This document shows, in pieces, positions 1,078 through 10,823 of a DNA stretch of 64,000 bases (its first letter is position 1; each line of letters opens with the position of its first letter). A program made the translations under genes and the position numbers. The stretch is from Candidatus Poseidonia sp. (lineage in GTDB: Archaea; Thermoplasmatota; Poseidoniia; Poseidoniales; Poseidoniaceae), in assembly GCA_030828165.1 (NCBI GenBank), contig JAURDA010000002.1:1-64000 (forward strand), in the 5' to 3' direction. Below the pieces are notes generated by a model. It searched no databases. It had not been told where the DNA came from and was given only the letters and a program-made list of their open reading frames with translations.

Positions 1078-2109
1078 ATGAACGGCTCATCACGGTCAAA
1101 CGCCTTTTTCCTCTGTCTGGTGATGGTTTTGGGAAGCTTGAGCGGGTGCCTCTCCAACGAGGACGACGACACGCTGAGAATCGCCTTCGCCATCAAGGAC
1201 GATTACGCAAGTTTCGACGACAACCCCCAGAAACTCGCCGATTACCTCAGCGAAGCGACGGGGAAAAGCGTGGAATTGTACGCCATCACCTCCGACGCCC
1301 TCGCCCTTGAAGCCCTCCGTTTCGGAAGTGCAGACATGGCGTTTCTTGACGGCGGTGCTGCTTGGATGGGCTGGCAACAATACGGATTGGAAGCGATGGC
1401 GGCCAGCACGAACGCTGACGGTCGATCTCATTACAACGCCCAAGCATGGGTGCTCACCGAGAGTGATGCCGGTCAAGCGGCGACCGATAACGACGATACA
1501 ACCGACCCCTTTGCTCTGCTTGAAGGCAGCGTGACGTGCCACACCGGGTGGCTCAAATCAGCGGGGATGTTGATTCCAATGGGCTATTTCATCGGCGAAG
1601 GTTACGCTGAGGTGGTCGGCGACGAGGACGACATCGAGTCCCTCCGTTCGACCATCTTCAACCACTTTTCCGAGGACGCTGTCATCCCCGAGTCGGGTAC
1701 GCCATACTACGGATACGGGGGAGCGCTTCGTTGCCTTTCCGAGGGCGAAGGTGCCGTGGCTTTCGTCAAAGACACAAGCGTCGATACATACTGTCCCGAA
1801 AACGGTGACCGTGAAGCTTGGTGCTTGGACCGCGACCGTTACACGCCGCTTCCGCCGTTTGGGCAAGCCCCCTCTCACCCGCTGATGTACCAACCCGATT
1901 CAATTGACGATGAAACACGGGCGAGTTTGGTTGCTGCCTTCGTGGCGCTCAATGCGACGGAAGACGGGCGGCAAATCCTCGCCACCATCCTCAACGCCCC
2001 CAACGTCATCGAAGTCGACACCGCATCGCACCTGGGCGATTACGGCTCGCTGATCGAGCACGTGCCCGGAATTACCGCCTACTTGGACGAGAAGTTTTCC
2101 TCGGAGTGA
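1078..2109 (+). CDS. PhnD-type ABC transporter substrate-binding lipoprotein
   Basis: A 343-residue exported solute receptor. Residues 1-24 form a lipoprotein signal with lipobox LSGC (Cys24), so the mature protein is probably lipid-anchored outside the cell. The sequence after it (LRIAFAIKDDYASF, then LADYLSEATGKSVELY and GSADMAFLDGGAAW) matches the phosphate/phosphite/phosphonate-binding periplasmic family (PhnD/PtxB). It is first in an operon with an ATPase and a permease. Orientation and spacing fit co-transcription. The ligand is uncertain: phosphonate, phosphite and phosphate are family precedents, and the metal-regulator-like palindromes upstream leave open something else. Confidence 0.85.
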   Translation: MNGSSRSNAFFLCLVMVLGSLSGCLSNEDDDTLRIAFAIKDDYASFDDNPQKLADYLSEATGKSVELYAITSDALALEALRFGSADMAFLDGGAAWMGWQQYGLEAMAASTNADGRSHYNAQAWVLTESDAGQAATDNDDTTDPFALLEGSVTCHTGWLKSAGMLIPMGYFIGEGYAEVVGDEDDIESLRSTIFNHFSEDAVIPESGTPYYGYGGALRCLSEGEGAVAFVKDTSVDTYCPENGDREAWCLDRDRYTPLPPFGQAPSHPLMYQPDSIDDETRASLVAAFVALNATEDGRQILATILNAPNVIEVDTASHLGDYGSLIEHVPGITAYLDEKFSSE

Positions 2110-2113
2110 TTTC

Positions 2114-2776
2114 ATGGAGGAAGTCTTGGTCCACCTCCACGACGTGAGCATTGGCTATGATGAGGCGCTCATCGCCGGCATTAACGTCGAGATTCAAGCG
2201 GGCGATGTGATTGCGGTCTTGGGGCCGTCCGGCATCGGGAAAACCACGCTTTTGCGAACCATTGCTGGATTGGTTCGCCCGCTCGAAGGTGACGTCGAAC
2301 TGGGCGTTCCGTCTCGAGGGGGCTTGGGCTACATTCCGCAGCGTTTGGGCTTGGTCGGTAACAGCACCGTTCGCACCAACGTGGAAATGGGCGCCCGGGT
2401 GGGTTTGTCTCGCTGGTATTTCCCTTTCCTCCCGCTTCCCGCTCAACAACAGCGCTATGCACAACGGGCGATGGAGGATTTGGGCATCGCTCATCTTGCT
2501 GAGCAACCGGTCCGTATCCTCTCAGGAGGTCAACAACGGCGGGTGGCAACGGCGAAAACCCTTGCACAGCGGCCAAAACTCGTTCTCGCAGATGAATTCC
2601 TTGGGGAATTGGACGACGACAACGTCGATATCGTGATGAAAACCGTTCGCTCGGCCATCGAGGCCCAAAACTCGGCGATGGTGATGGTGGAACACCACGA
2701 AGAACTGGCGAAGCAGGTCGCCAATCGGATTTGGCGCATCACCGACCATACGCTGGTTGAGGAGGTGGTTGAGTGA
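2114..2776 (+). CDS. PhnC-type ABC transporter ATP-binding protein
   Basis: A 220-residue ATPase that powers the importer. It shows Walker A GPSGIGKT (37-44), Q-loop Gln76, signature LSGGQ (136-140), Walker B VLADE (157-161) and an H-loop His near 194. It starts 4 bp after the receptor gene and its stop overlaps the permease start. It is slightly shorter than a typical PhnC, and it lacks any C-terminal regulatory domain. Confidence 0.88.
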   Translation: MEEVLVHLHDVSIGYDEALIAGINVEIQAGDVIAVLGPSGIGKTTLLRTIAGLVRPLEGDVELGVPSRGGLGYIPQRLGLVGNSTVRTNVEMGARVGLSRWYFPFLPLPAQQQRYAQRAMEDLGIAHLAEQPVRILSGGQQRRVATAKTLAQRPKLVLADEFLGELDDDNVDIVMKTVRSAIEAQNSAMVMVEHHEELAKQVANRIWRITDHTLVEEVVE

Positions 2777-3681
2777 ACAAGCGGTTCTACCTCTGGGGCG
2801 GAGCGCTTCTCGCGTTGACGTTCATCACCTTCATCGACCTTGCAGGCGATTGGGGTCGGTTGAGTGGGGGATGGACGAACCTCAAGCGCTTTTTCAGCGA
2901 AAGTCTCTGGCCACCAAACTGGTCCGTGCTTGAGGCTCAATCGTATCCTGTTTGCGATGCAAGTTTCGATTTCATGTGCTCCGTCGCATGGATTGGCATG
3001 TGGGAGACGATAAAAATCGCCTTCGTCGCTACGGTGCTGGGTTTTCTTGTCGCCTTGCCTCTATCGGTGTTGGCTGCAAGCAACCTCTCGCCCATCGAAT
3101 TGGCCATCCCCACCCGAGTCGTGCTTGCTGGTATGCGCAGCCTGCCTTCCATCATTTGGGCGGTTTTGTTCATGATTGTCTTTGATGTCGGCGCCTTAGC
3201 AGGGATCTTCGCCATGACGTTCTACACGGTGGGCTACCTGGGAAAACTTCAGTTTGAGTCGATGGAAGGCATCAAAAACGCTCCCTTGGAAGCCGCAAGG
3301 GCCATGGGCATGACGCGAAGCGAGACCGCTTGGTTGGTCGCGATTCCCGAATCCGCAAACAACCTCGTCAGCCACGTCCTGTTCATGTTCGAATACAACG
3401 TTCGGCACGGGACCGTGATCGGGTTGGTCGGGGCGGGCGGCATTGGCCTGTACATCAACACCTACCTCAAACTCGCTCAATACGACAAGGTCGTCGCTCT
3501 TCTCTTGGTGGTGTTCGTGGTGGTGGTTCTCATCGACGCCCTCTCGATGATGCTCCGAGCCGCCGTCACCGAAGAAGGGGACGTGGAACGTCCTGCATGG
3601 TCGTCGTTGTTCTTGCCCGCTGCGATTTCCTCTGCCCTCCACCCGACCCCGATGCCTTCGGTTTCGGCTGAGGACGAATGA
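2773..3681 (+). CDS. PhnE-type ABC transporter permease
   Basis: A 302-residue inner-membrane subunit starting with GTG in a 4-base overlap with the ATPase stop. An N-terminal anchor (about 7-25) is followed by several transmembrane segments. The cytoplasmic EAA-type coupling loop reads EAARAMGMTRSETAWLVAIP, about residues 173-192. This matches the PhnE/binding-protein-dependent permease fold. There is only one permease gene, so the transporter is probably a homodimer of this subunit. Confidence 0.87.
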   Translation: MNKRFYLWGGALLALTFITFIDLAGDWGRLSGGWTNLKRFFSESLWPPNWSVLEAQSYPVCDASFDFMCSVAWIGMWETIKIAFVATVLGFLVALPLSVLAASNLSPIELAIPTRVVLAGMRSLPSIIWAVLFMIVFDVGALAGIFAMTFYTVGYLGKLQFESMEGIKNAPLEAARAMGMTRSETAWLVAIPESANNLVSHVLFMFEYNVRHGTVIGLVGAGGIGLYINTYLKLAQYDKVVALLLVVFVVVVLIDALSMMLRAAVTEEGDVERPAWSSLFLPAAISSALHPTPMPSVSAEDE

Positions 3682-3944: not shown

Positions 3945-4943
3945 TCAACCCAAGGCGACCATTCGGCGGCAGCATTCCTCGGCGTTGATGTCGCCGTTGA
4001 GCAAGGTGTTGAGGGCTTTGGTGAACGGCGTGTTGAGGTTGGCATCTTCGGCTCGTTCGGTGAACATGCGTGTCGCTCGAACACCCTCAGCAACCATGTG
4101 CATCTCGTTCAGCGCTTCTTCAAGCGTCAATCCGGTACCGAGTTTTTCACCCATGGTTCGGTTCCGGCCGTGAGGCGAGGTGGCGGTGACGTACATGTCA
4201 CCAAGCCCTGCGGGACCGAACGCCACTTCGGCGCGGGCGCCAAGCTCGGCGAGCAACAAGCATCCTTCTTTGAAGCCGGACATGAAAATGGCCGCCTTGA
4301 GGTTGTCCCCCCCGAGGTCGCCAACCTGTTTCAAGCCGTCAACCAAACCGCAGGCAAGGGCCACGACGTTCTTGTAGGCGCCCCACAATTCCGCACCGAC
4401 CGGGTCGCTTGCAGGATGAAGAATGAAACTCGGCGTGCTCAAGGTTTGAGCGAGGCGCTGAGCGATGGCCTGATCCTCGCTGGCCACCAGAGCCGTCGTC
4501 ATGACGCCGCCTGCGGCTTCTGGGGCGATGGTCGGTCCGGTTAGCACCGCAAGCGGGTTGGTCTTCCCCTCTTCCTTCAAACGGGCGTGAATGGCCTCGG
4601 AGATCAACCGACTGCCGGGTGCGAGTCCCTTGGCGAGGTCGAGAAGGACGTGGCGGGGCTGAAGATGCGGAAGAACGTCTTCCAAGACTTGGAGAATGAC
4701 CGAGGACGGCACGGCGAGCACGACAATTTCACTGCCCTCAAGGGCTTCGTCGATGTGCATCGTGACGTCAAGACCAGGAACGGGATGCTCGGGCAGGTAT
4801 TTTTCATTCACTTCGCTCATGGTTATGGATTCATACACTTCCTGCTCAATGGTCCATCCTGTGACCTTGTGCCCTTCCAGCAACCACAAACGTGCGATGG
4901 CCGTCCCCCAGTTTCCCAATCCCAACACAGCGACATGAGCCAT
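3945..4943 (-). CDS. gpsA: NAD(P)-dependent glycerol-3-phosphate dehydrogenase, bacterial type
   Basis: A 332-residue enzyme that would interconvert dihydroxyacetone phosphate and sn-glycerol 3-phosphate. The Rossmann motif GLGNWGTAIA begins at residue 8. The catalytic-domain blocks AYKNVVALACGLVDGL and GLGDMYVTATSPHGRNR match GpsA closely. The block GPTIAPEAA replaces the usual GPSFAxE(V/I)A. Most archaea instead make sn-glycerol 1-phosphate with the unrelated EgsA. Here a bacterial-type GpsA is complete and, as far as the motifs show, intact. It has its own TATA-like element 30 bp upstream of the start. Confidence 0.93.
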   Translation of the reverse strand: MAHVAVLGLGNWGTAIARLWLLEGHKVTGWTIEQEVYESITMSEVNEKYLPEHPVPGLDVTMHIDEALEGSEIVVLAVPSSVILQVLEDVLPHLQPRHVLLDLAKGLAPGSRLISEAIHARLKEEGKTNPLAVLTGPTIAPEAAGGVMTTALVASEDQAIAQRLAQTLSTPSFILHPASDPVGAELWGAYKNVVALACGLVDGLKQVGDLGGDNLKAAIFMSGFKEGCLLLAELGARAEVAFGPAGLGDMYVTATSPHGRNRTMGEKLGTGLTLEEALNEMHMVAEGVRATRMFTERAEDANLNTPFTKALNTLLNGDINAEECCRRMVALG

Positions 4944-5037: not shown

Positions 5038-6183
5038 TCAGAACAAATCGTCGTCGTCCTCTTCGAATTCAATGATCTCGTTGTCCTCTGCCTTTGCCGT
5101 TGCTTTCGTTGGTTTCGGGGTTGCAACGGCCTCGGTCTTCGCAGGCTCTTTGGGAGCGGGTGCGTCCTCCTTTTCGGCAGCGGGTGTTTCCGTTCGGGCT
5201 TGGGCCAACTCGCTTTCCTTTGAGCGAAGTTCCTCTTCGCTTTTCCCGGTTTGGAGGGCCAGTGCACGGCGACGGTCTTCTCGGGCTTTGCGCTCGAGTT
5301 GCTTGTGACGAGATTTTTCGATGTTCTGCATCATGTACATGGCATCGTGCTCAAGCAGAGGTGAATCCGAAATCAACGTGATGTCCAGCCATCCGCCGTC
5401 TTCGACGATAAATTCAGCCAGCGGTTCGAAATTCAAATCCGATTTCTTGATCTGTGTGTAGTGCATGGCGTTCCCGGTTCGGTGTTCAACCCCTGAGAAG
5501 TGACAGTAGAACTCCTTGGTCCCGATGGTTTCACGGACCATGTCAAACAGTTCTCCGTAATCTTCTGAGGTCCGCATCTGGCCGTGGCCCCGAGCGTGTA
5601 TGTGGGCGATGTTCAGCACCGGCACGGTGCCTTCAACATGGTTCACGACCTCAAGCACCTCTTCGAGGCTTCCCCAGAGTTCCTGGCGGCCCGAGGTTTC
5701 AACGCCGATTTTTGATGGCGTTCCGTCCTTGATCCAGGGGAAAACAGGGAATTCATCCTCGTCGTCGTGCCAGATGGAATGGATTCGGTCGACGATTCCC
5801 GAGAAGACGTTTGCGACTTGCTCGTTGGCTGCATGGCCGCGTCCAAATTCACCGTAATGGCCCGTGTGGAGGGTGATGTGACGTGCATTGATGGTGCGGG
5901 CCGCTTGGAGCGTGGCCTCGATCTTGGCCAAGGAGCGACCGCGTTCAACACGGTTGCCGAGCAACTCCGAGTAGTAGGGGCCGTGGATGTTCATTTCGAA
6001 GTCGGTCTTGTTGGCCAACACCCCCGCCTGCCAGTATTGTTCAAAGTGCTGAGGGGCGACCATGCGAACGGTTTGCACCTCCATGGTCTCAAGGCCGAGC
6101 GAAATGATGTCGTCCATTCCTTCGACGATGGTTCGCCCTTTGCACGAGAGCGGGACGCCCGCAGGTCCAAGTTTTACCGACAT
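5038..6183 (-). CDS. endonuclease IV / xylose-isomerase-like TIM-barrel protein with acidic tail
   Basis: A 381-residue protein. Residues about 1-285 are a TIM barrel of the AP endonuclease family 2 type; 286-381 form a charged, Ala/Lys/Glu/Pro-rich tail ending in a run of Asp and Glu. Compared with E. coli Nfo, metal ligands equivalent to H69 (NIHGPYY), H109 (TLHTGHYG), E145 (GVETSGR), H182 (NIAHIHARGHG), H216 (CHFSG) and H231 (AMHYTQ) are visible. D179 reads Asn, D229 reads Ala, and E261 falls in SDSP. The role is probably DNA base-excision repair, but the altered ligands leave other barrel chemistry possible. The tail may be a protein-interaction handle. Confidence 0.75.
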   Translation of the reverse strand: MSVKLGPAGVPLSCKGRTIVEGMDDIISLGLETMEVQTVRMVAPQHFEQYWQAGVLANKTDFEMNIHGPYYSELLGNRVERGRSLAKIEATLQAARTINARHITLHTGHYGEFGRGHAANEQVANVFSGIVDRIHSIWHDDEDEFPVFPWIKDGTPSKIGVETSGRQELWGSLEEVLEVVNHVEGTVPVLNIAHIHARGHGQMRTSEDYGELFDMVRETIGTKEFYCHFSGVEHRTGNAMHYTQIKKSDLNFEPLAEFIVEDGGWLDITLISDSPLLEHDAMYMMQNIEKSRHKQLERKAREDRRRALALQTGKSEEELRSKESELAQARTETPAAEKEDAPAPKEPAKTEAVATPKPTKATAKAEDNEIIEFEEDDDDLF

Positions 6184-10145: not shown

Positions 10146-10823
10146 TCAAAGCAGCGGCCCGATTTGAACGCCGAGAAGCAGCACCGCCGTGGCGGCCACG
10201 GTGATGAGGATGTTATCGTCGATGGGCCCGAACTCGTACCGCTCAACGAAGGTCGCCACGGTGGCGGATAGGAGGCCCCATACGGGAAGGCTTGGGTCGC
10301 CTGCCTTCGCGGCAAACCAACCCAAAGGGGCGCTCACGATGAACATGAAGACGTTGCCAATCGGACTTTTTGATCGCTTTTGAACTACGGCGTTTCGAAC
10401 CACGCCGGTGATGCCATCGCCAAACGCCATGAACAACGAGGGGACGATGGCCAACCAAGGGTCGCCCACCAACCACCATATCAGCGATATCGAGACCCAC
10501 CACATCAAGGCGAATTTGACGTCGTTTTGGTTCTGCTCGGTTTGGAACCAATGCATGACCACTCCGGCACGGTGGGATGCGTAGAGCATGACCGTGAGCA
10601 GCAAGCCAGCGAGCATGGGGTACCAAAGGTCGGTGAACAAAAACGGAACGCTGAGGGAGCCAACACCGCCGGCGAACATGTGAACAATTTTCCTGTTGTA
10701 ATACACCGCTCGAATGTGTTCCATGCCACGGTCGACCATCATGGTGTAGGGAATTTTGGTGGCGTACAGCACCACCATGACGTACACGCCCATGCCCACA
10801 GCTGCAACCCATTGGTCGACCAT
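10146..10823 (-). CDS. dolichol/phytol-kinase-like membrane protein (CDP-alcohol/prenol kinase family)
   Basis: A 225-residue polytopic membrane protein with about six hydrophobic segments. Two family-like blocks are visible. The first is RKIVHMFAGG near residue 44, resembling the RKxxH motif of CTP-dependent prenol kinases such as Sec59 and VTE5. The second is MAFGDGITGVVRN followed by KRSKSPIGN, resembling the FGDxxAxxxGxxxGKxxxxGK CTP-binding region. Members phosphorylate dolichol, phytol or farnesol, or transfer CMP to phosphatidate. In an archaeon a lipid-precursor or prenol-salvage role is plausible. The substrate is not determined. Confidence 0.7.
   Translation of the reverse strand: MVDQWVAAVGMGVYVMVVLYATKIPYTMMVDRGMEHIRAVYYNRKIVHMFAGGVGSLSVPFLFTDLWYPMLAGLLLTVMLYASHRAGVVMHWFQTEQNQNDVKFALMWWVSISLIWWLVGDPWLAIVPSLFMAFGDGITGVVRNAVVQKRSKSPIGNVFMFIVSAPLGWFAAKAGDPSLPVWGLLSATVATFVERYEFGPIDDNILITVAATAVLLLGVQIGPLL

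Follow-up and report, generated by a model that had tools for sequence, protein, structure and literature searches.

Glycerol-3-phosphate dehydrogenase without a recognised EgsA in Poseidoniales, and its predicted role in membrane-lipid synthesis

The chirality of the glycerol phosphate backbone is held to divide archaeal from bacterial membranes. Marine Group II (MGII) archaea rank with the most abundant in surface ocean waters, and the occurrence in them of a bacterial-type GpsA in place of EgsA has been published before (Rinke et al., 2018, PMC6461757; Besseling et al., 2020) and is reproduced here. According to Rinke et al. (2018), no glycerol-1-phosphate (G1P) dehydrogenase was present in any of 270 MGII MAGs, a glycerol-3-phosphate (G3P) dehydrogenase was present in every MGII genus except one, and the archaeal lipid gene set was complete in the order; mixed lipids built on G3P were proposed. 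The pattern reported below concerns the same organisms and is the same observation as that of Rinke et al. (2018) and Villanueva et al. (2017); beyond it, 193 genomes, the sister order, the PlsY, GlpD-type and GlpK genes and the residues of GGGPS were covered, and these additions are modest. The mirror-image gene content of Marine Group III (MGIII) and an insertion in GGGPS, both described below, had no prior description in the titles and abstract openings listed by searches of an open-access collection.

Two kinds of described GpsA are closest to the one studied here. That of Archaeoglobus fulgidus (PDB 1txg) belongs to the same enzyme family and is also archaeal, but A. fulgidus additionally has EgsA (PMC5059525), whereas none was found in MGII. 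Bacterial GpsA (Coxiella 3k96; Escherichia, Nonomuraea) shares domains, length and motifs with the protein studied here, which is 34-37% identical to the Escherichia and Nonomuraea proteins; unlike the bacterial enzymes, the MGII copies form a clade of their own on a long stem.

The gpsA gene and its surroundings

The window, a 64,000-nucleotide stretch of Candidatus Poseidonia sp. DNA, is contig 40 of an assembly (G000) of 1.79 Mb that is 84% complete. The features nearest gpsA are:

1078-3681, phnD-phnC-phnE set (PhnCDE-type transporter), phnE last
2773..3681, plus strand, PhnE-type permease, convergent to gpsA (TIGR01097, 223.7 bits, cut-off 216.7)
3945..4943, minus strand, gpsA, NAD(P)-dependent glycerol-3-phosphate dehydrogenase (ORF; PF01210 and PF07479; NF000942 over cut-off)
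5038..6183, minus strand, AP_endonuc_2/xylose-isomerase-like TIM barrel with an acidic C-terminal tail (PF01261, 41.2 bits)

The gpsA ORF is intact, starts with ATG and encodes 332 aa, filling exactly positions 3945-4943. Pfam recognised both halves of the protein (PF01210, 124.5 bits, residues 4-160; PF07479, 128 bits, residues 180-324), and the NCBIfam subfamily models NF000942 (273.6 vs. cut-off 257) and NF000940 (218.9 vs. cut-off 202) were exceeded; among the matches listed, the equivalog-level GpsA models of NCBIfam scored under their cut-offs. The protein aligned over most of its length with solved structures of bacterial, eukaryotic and Archaeoglobus GpsA, including 3k96 (E 9e-46) and 1txg of A. 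fulgidus (E 1e-30). Six residues that we take to be catalytic from human GPD1 (K105, N192, D249, T253, R260, and N261) were identical in all 115-116 rows covering each, out of 118 Poseidoniales rows. Relatives at 75-97% identity came from records named Poseidonia, Poseidoniales or ‘Euryarchaeota archaeon’, the closest named ones being Poseidonia MAGs with up to 97% identity across all 332 residues. The original prediction of a complete GpsA with intact motifs in an archaeal, Marine Group II setting was thereby confirmed: the gene is real and complete, and its predicted product is sn-glycerol-3-phosphate. It is a single copy, being the sole PF07479 match in the assembly.

The TIM-barrel gene lies 94 bp upstream of gpsA on the same strand and is possibly co-transcribed with it; it was co-oriented with gpsA in 77/77 Poseidoniaceae loci having room upstream, and was not seen in 33 MGIIb gpsA loci, which are only ∼2.2-3.4 kb long. 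Among the gpsA loci, many of them short, phnE was found in 70 of 80 from MGIIa and 19 of 33 from MGIIb, and riboflavin genes come next in the neighborhood (Pfam, NCBIfam). Neither the family scans of the window nor the comparison of Poseidoniales gpsA loci placed a glycerol-catabolic gene among these neighbors. A UbiA gene in the window, considered as the next lipid enzyme, was rejected as such since it encodes a heme O synthase (TIGR01473, 241.3 vs. cut-off 210.3). At 10146-10823 (minus strand), a 225-aa membrane-like protein has motifs that, by eye, presumably recall CTP-dependent polyprenol/phytol kinases; the idea that this gene may be related to lipid precursors found no backing in family searches, as neither NCBIfam nor Pfam, the latter even at E 10, gave a match.

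Gene content across Poseidoniales, the sister order and the phylum

GpsA was present in 176 of 193 Poseidoniales genomes and in 32 of the 34 that are at least 90% complete. No protein in the 193 genomes, that of the window included, or in the 34 most complete exceeded the cut-off of the EgsA-type family PF13685, and 11 weak matches fell below it; because PF13685 is wider than EgsA and also rings in E. coli, the count of 0/193 is a strict result. GGGPS (PF01884), the first enzyme of ether-lipid synthesis, was found in 155/193 genomes and in 27/34 of the most complete. The genome search that the original prediction had proposed as a check thus yielded, for the window’s own assembly, one GpsA, no EgsA and a GGGPS of 129 bits, and the predicted presence of GpsA without EgsA was borne out both there and across the order; the gene lies among transporter, TIM-barrel and riboflavin genes, not in a catabolic cluster.

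Five of the 11 sub-cut-off PF13685 matches (L112, L113, L114, L115, and L119) were followed as possible hidden EgsA, and all were rejected: by family scan L114 is an AroB-like protein and L115 a DAGK/YegS-type lipid kinase (DAGK_cat, 99.6 bits), which L112, L113, and L119 resemble by eye. The latter four thus form a set of MGIIb YegS/BmrU-type lipid kinases, whose gene adjoins, by eye, a riboflavin deaminase/reductase-like gene.

Genes that would point to other uses of G3P were nearly absent. PlsY was found in 0/193 genomes (0/34 of the most complete), as was the GlpD-type domain DAO_C (0/193 and 0/34), which also rang in no archaeal control genome, such that an archaeal GlpA could escape it; the glycerol kinase GlpK gave a single match in 193 genomes, below cut-off (461 bits vs. 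590), and none in the 34. Glycerol catabolism, a GlpD shuttle and a PlsY-dependent acyl-lipid route are therefore poorly supported, and the respiratory or redox role offered as an alternative in the original prediction has lost ground.

One genus of the Thalassarchaeaceae (g17; e.g., G024, G026, and G075) had GGGPS in only 3/15 genomes vs. 68/82 in the other genera of the family (Fisher p 3.7e-6, counts by hand), with GpsA in 13/15. Either part of the genus lost GGGPS, or the gene lies in a poorly assembled place. Two g17 copies, those of G052 and G094, share 65-72% identity with their best matches in other genera and are therefore no strays from the genera examined.

The sister order of the same class, represented by 21 genomes of one family and three genera (completeness 54-97%), is presumably MGIII, since the class, as defined by Rinke et al., consists of MGII and MGIII. 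EgsA exceeded the cut-off in 12/21 of these genomes, GpsA was found in 0/21 and GGGPS in 16/21; the three EgsA proteins scanned scored 437.8, 433.6, and 443.8 against the G1P-dehydrogenase model NF002022 and all passed its cut-off of 413. These counts suggest that the sister order kept the archaeal EgsA, and this mirror image of Poseidoniales places the swap from EgsA to GpsA probably on the Poseidoniales branch. They disagree, for MGIII, with Besseling et al. (2020), who describe both MGII and MGIII as being without a G1P enzyme, and they fit the suggestion in PMC6470261 that MGIII makes archaeol lipids.

In a wider sample of 194 genomes of the phylum, PF13685 exceeded its cut-off in 133, leaving, by subtraction, 130 of the 141 genomes that belong to neither Poseidoniales nor the sister order. 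GpsA occurred in 10 of these 141, all 10 of which also had PF13685 over cut-off (nine strongly, G221 weakly), so GpsA alone implies no switch of backbone. Within the 194-genome sample, GpsA combined with an order-wide lack of EgsA is found only in Poseidoniales.

GGGPS and the likely use of the GpsA product

The GGGPS of the window’s genome lies on another contig, and in five MGIIb genomes a 219-235 aa protein (28-48% mutual identity, no Pfam match) is encoded immediately upstream of GGGPS, in the same orientation, and is possibly a partner in lipid synthesis:

G000:C19:31257-31958, GGGPS (PF01884), 129 bits
L254:5944-6618, protein upstream of GGGPS
L255:4662-5336, protein upstream of GGGPS
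L251:9039-9701, minus strand, protein upstream of GGGPS
L256:7549-8205, minus strand, protein upstream of GGGPS
L257:7442-8146, minus strand, protein upstream of GGGPS

GGGPS was compared among 32 MGII, 15 sister-order and 34 other sequences, after one divergent row of the latter kind (L184) was dropped, at nine sites aligned to the Archaeoglobus G1P-binding residues given in PMC9385802; the Methanothermobacter (Mt) residue numbers in that paper mismatch the PDB chain numbering, and aligned positions were used. Eight of the nine contact sites were invariant in 32/32 MGII sequences, among them the two tyrosines and the glutamate to which stereospecificity for G1P is ascribed; the ninth, a phosphate-site residue (Mt 226), was T in 12/32 and N in 20/32. 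The contact sites tested thus gave no sign of a re-engineered G1P pocket. Of 46 columns that are 90%-conserved in 49 reference rows, 34 are also 90%-conserved in MGII. Following Mt position 72, all 32 MGII sequences contain 15-18 additional residues, an insertion found in none of the 15 sister-order rows and represented by a single extra residue in one of the 34 others. Among the matches listed, family scores were ∼114-159 bits in MGII vs. ∼174-189 in the sister order (one truncated copy lower), which may reflect general divergence. On the question of a separate origin of the MGII GGGPS, the tree places MGII and MGIII apart, though a topology uniting them was not rejected (p-AU 0.194, insertion columns kept in).

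With no EgsA, PlsY or GlpD-type gene found and almost no GlpK, GpsA would be the sole recognised source of glycerol phosphate in the cell and lipid synthesis its sole recognised outlet. Judged from gene content, GpsA most likely supplies membrane-lipid synthesis with G3P, for the backbone or for the head group. In the reading that we prefer, to which we give a probability of about 0.5, GpsA would reduce dihydroxyacetone phosphate to G3P, having replaced an archaeal EgsA lost on the branch to Poseidoniales; the G3P would enter membrane-lipid synthesis, with the backbone as its likeliest use; and GGGPS would take G3P, no G1P being there to compete for the site, to give isoprenoid ether lipids with the bacterial handedness. 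We infer which way the reaction runs, that GGGPS uses G3P and what chirality the lipids have. The evidence pulls both ways: the unchanged GGGPS pocket argues for G1P and fits its continued use, which counts against a G3P backbone, whereas the missing EgsA argues against G1P. Published enzymology (PMC9385802, PMC13400652) is compatible with either backbone, and the former, a review, records that the GGGPS of Methanococcus maripaludis accepts G3P with eightfold lower affinity. With the G1P-contact residues kept, the G3P backbone stays a proposal, and the interpretation in the original prediction is partly supported.

The same invariant pocket (8/9 sites in 32/32 MGII) speaks for a different division of labor, in which GpsA would supply G3P for polar head groups of the phosphatidylglycerol type only and the backbone would be built on G1P from an unrecognised enzyme. 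G3P is believed to be the substrate of archaeal head-group synthases (PMC9385802), and engineered E. coli without a known G1P dehydrogenase still produced archaeal lipids of correct chirality (PMC13400652), which means that a gene background of this kind can harbor an unrecognised source of G1P. Against this stand the lack of any candidate G1P enzyme, PF13685 staying below cut-off in all 193 genomes broad as it is, and the sister order, which keeps EgsA and shows no GpsA, so that GpsA is apparently dispensable for head groups there. We regard this arrangement as a contender, though less likely than the preferred reading. A bolder version of the preferred reading, that the whole order swapped the handedness of its backbone and GGGPS adapted to G3P, perhaps through the insertion, while the sister order kept G1P, we consider somewhat doubtful; if true, the lipid divide would have been crossed in nature, and a close relative would serve as the control.

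GpsA serves glycerol catabolism or respiratory and redox shuttles in other organisms, and the phylum members that carry GpsA together with EgsA are in keeping with such a role, but the absence of DAO_C (silent in the archaeal controls as well, so that GlpA could escape), the lone sub-cut-off GlpK and gpsA neighbors free of catabolic genes make it very unlikely in Poseidoniales. Supply of G3P to fatty-acyl phospholipids of bacterial type, with or beside ether lipids, is also unlikely: PlsC homologs and fatty-acid genes have been reported in MGII (Villanueva et al., 2017, as relayed in PMC6962369), but PlsY was found in none of the 193 genomes, the 34 most complete included, and Coleman et al. 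(PMC6431249), who mention PlsC and PlsY from bins of Marine Group II/III, doubt that these act in membranes. Sister orders of opposite gene content, both with GGGPS, together with the finding of no GlpD-type or PlsY gene and only one sub-cut-off GlpK in Poseidoniales, narrow the question to a few enzyme assays, namely which glycerol phosphate Poseidoniales GGGPS uses and whether the insertion matters.

Origin of GpsA in Poseidoniales

Phylogenetic analysis grouped the MGII GpsA proteins in one clade (support 100/100), one mis-trimmed paralog aside, whose stem measures 2.16 changes per column. This fits, but does not by itself establish, a single acquisition before the split of MGIIa and MGIIb. 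Inheritance from within the phylum was rejected, since the other Thermoplasmatota copies, nine in this tree, form two groups that lie away from those of MGII; with long branches and only five bacterial rows, the tree resolved no bacterial donor. A Tistrella row (L246), of which about half the length was recovered, was omitted, and the badly trimmed row L012 proved to be a different paralog. This paralog belongs to a distinct GpsA-like protein of genus g14 (G007, G038, and probably G149) that is ∼27% identical to the GpsA of the window:

L012:1021-2028, g14 GpsA-like protein
L018:1021-2028, g14 GpsA-like protein

An extra, strongly bacterial-like GpsA (L002, 8.4e-54) occurs in G035 on contig 16, which is 4.7 kb long, also carries, by eye, a D-Ala-D-Ala ligase-like gene, and is probably a contaminating contig.
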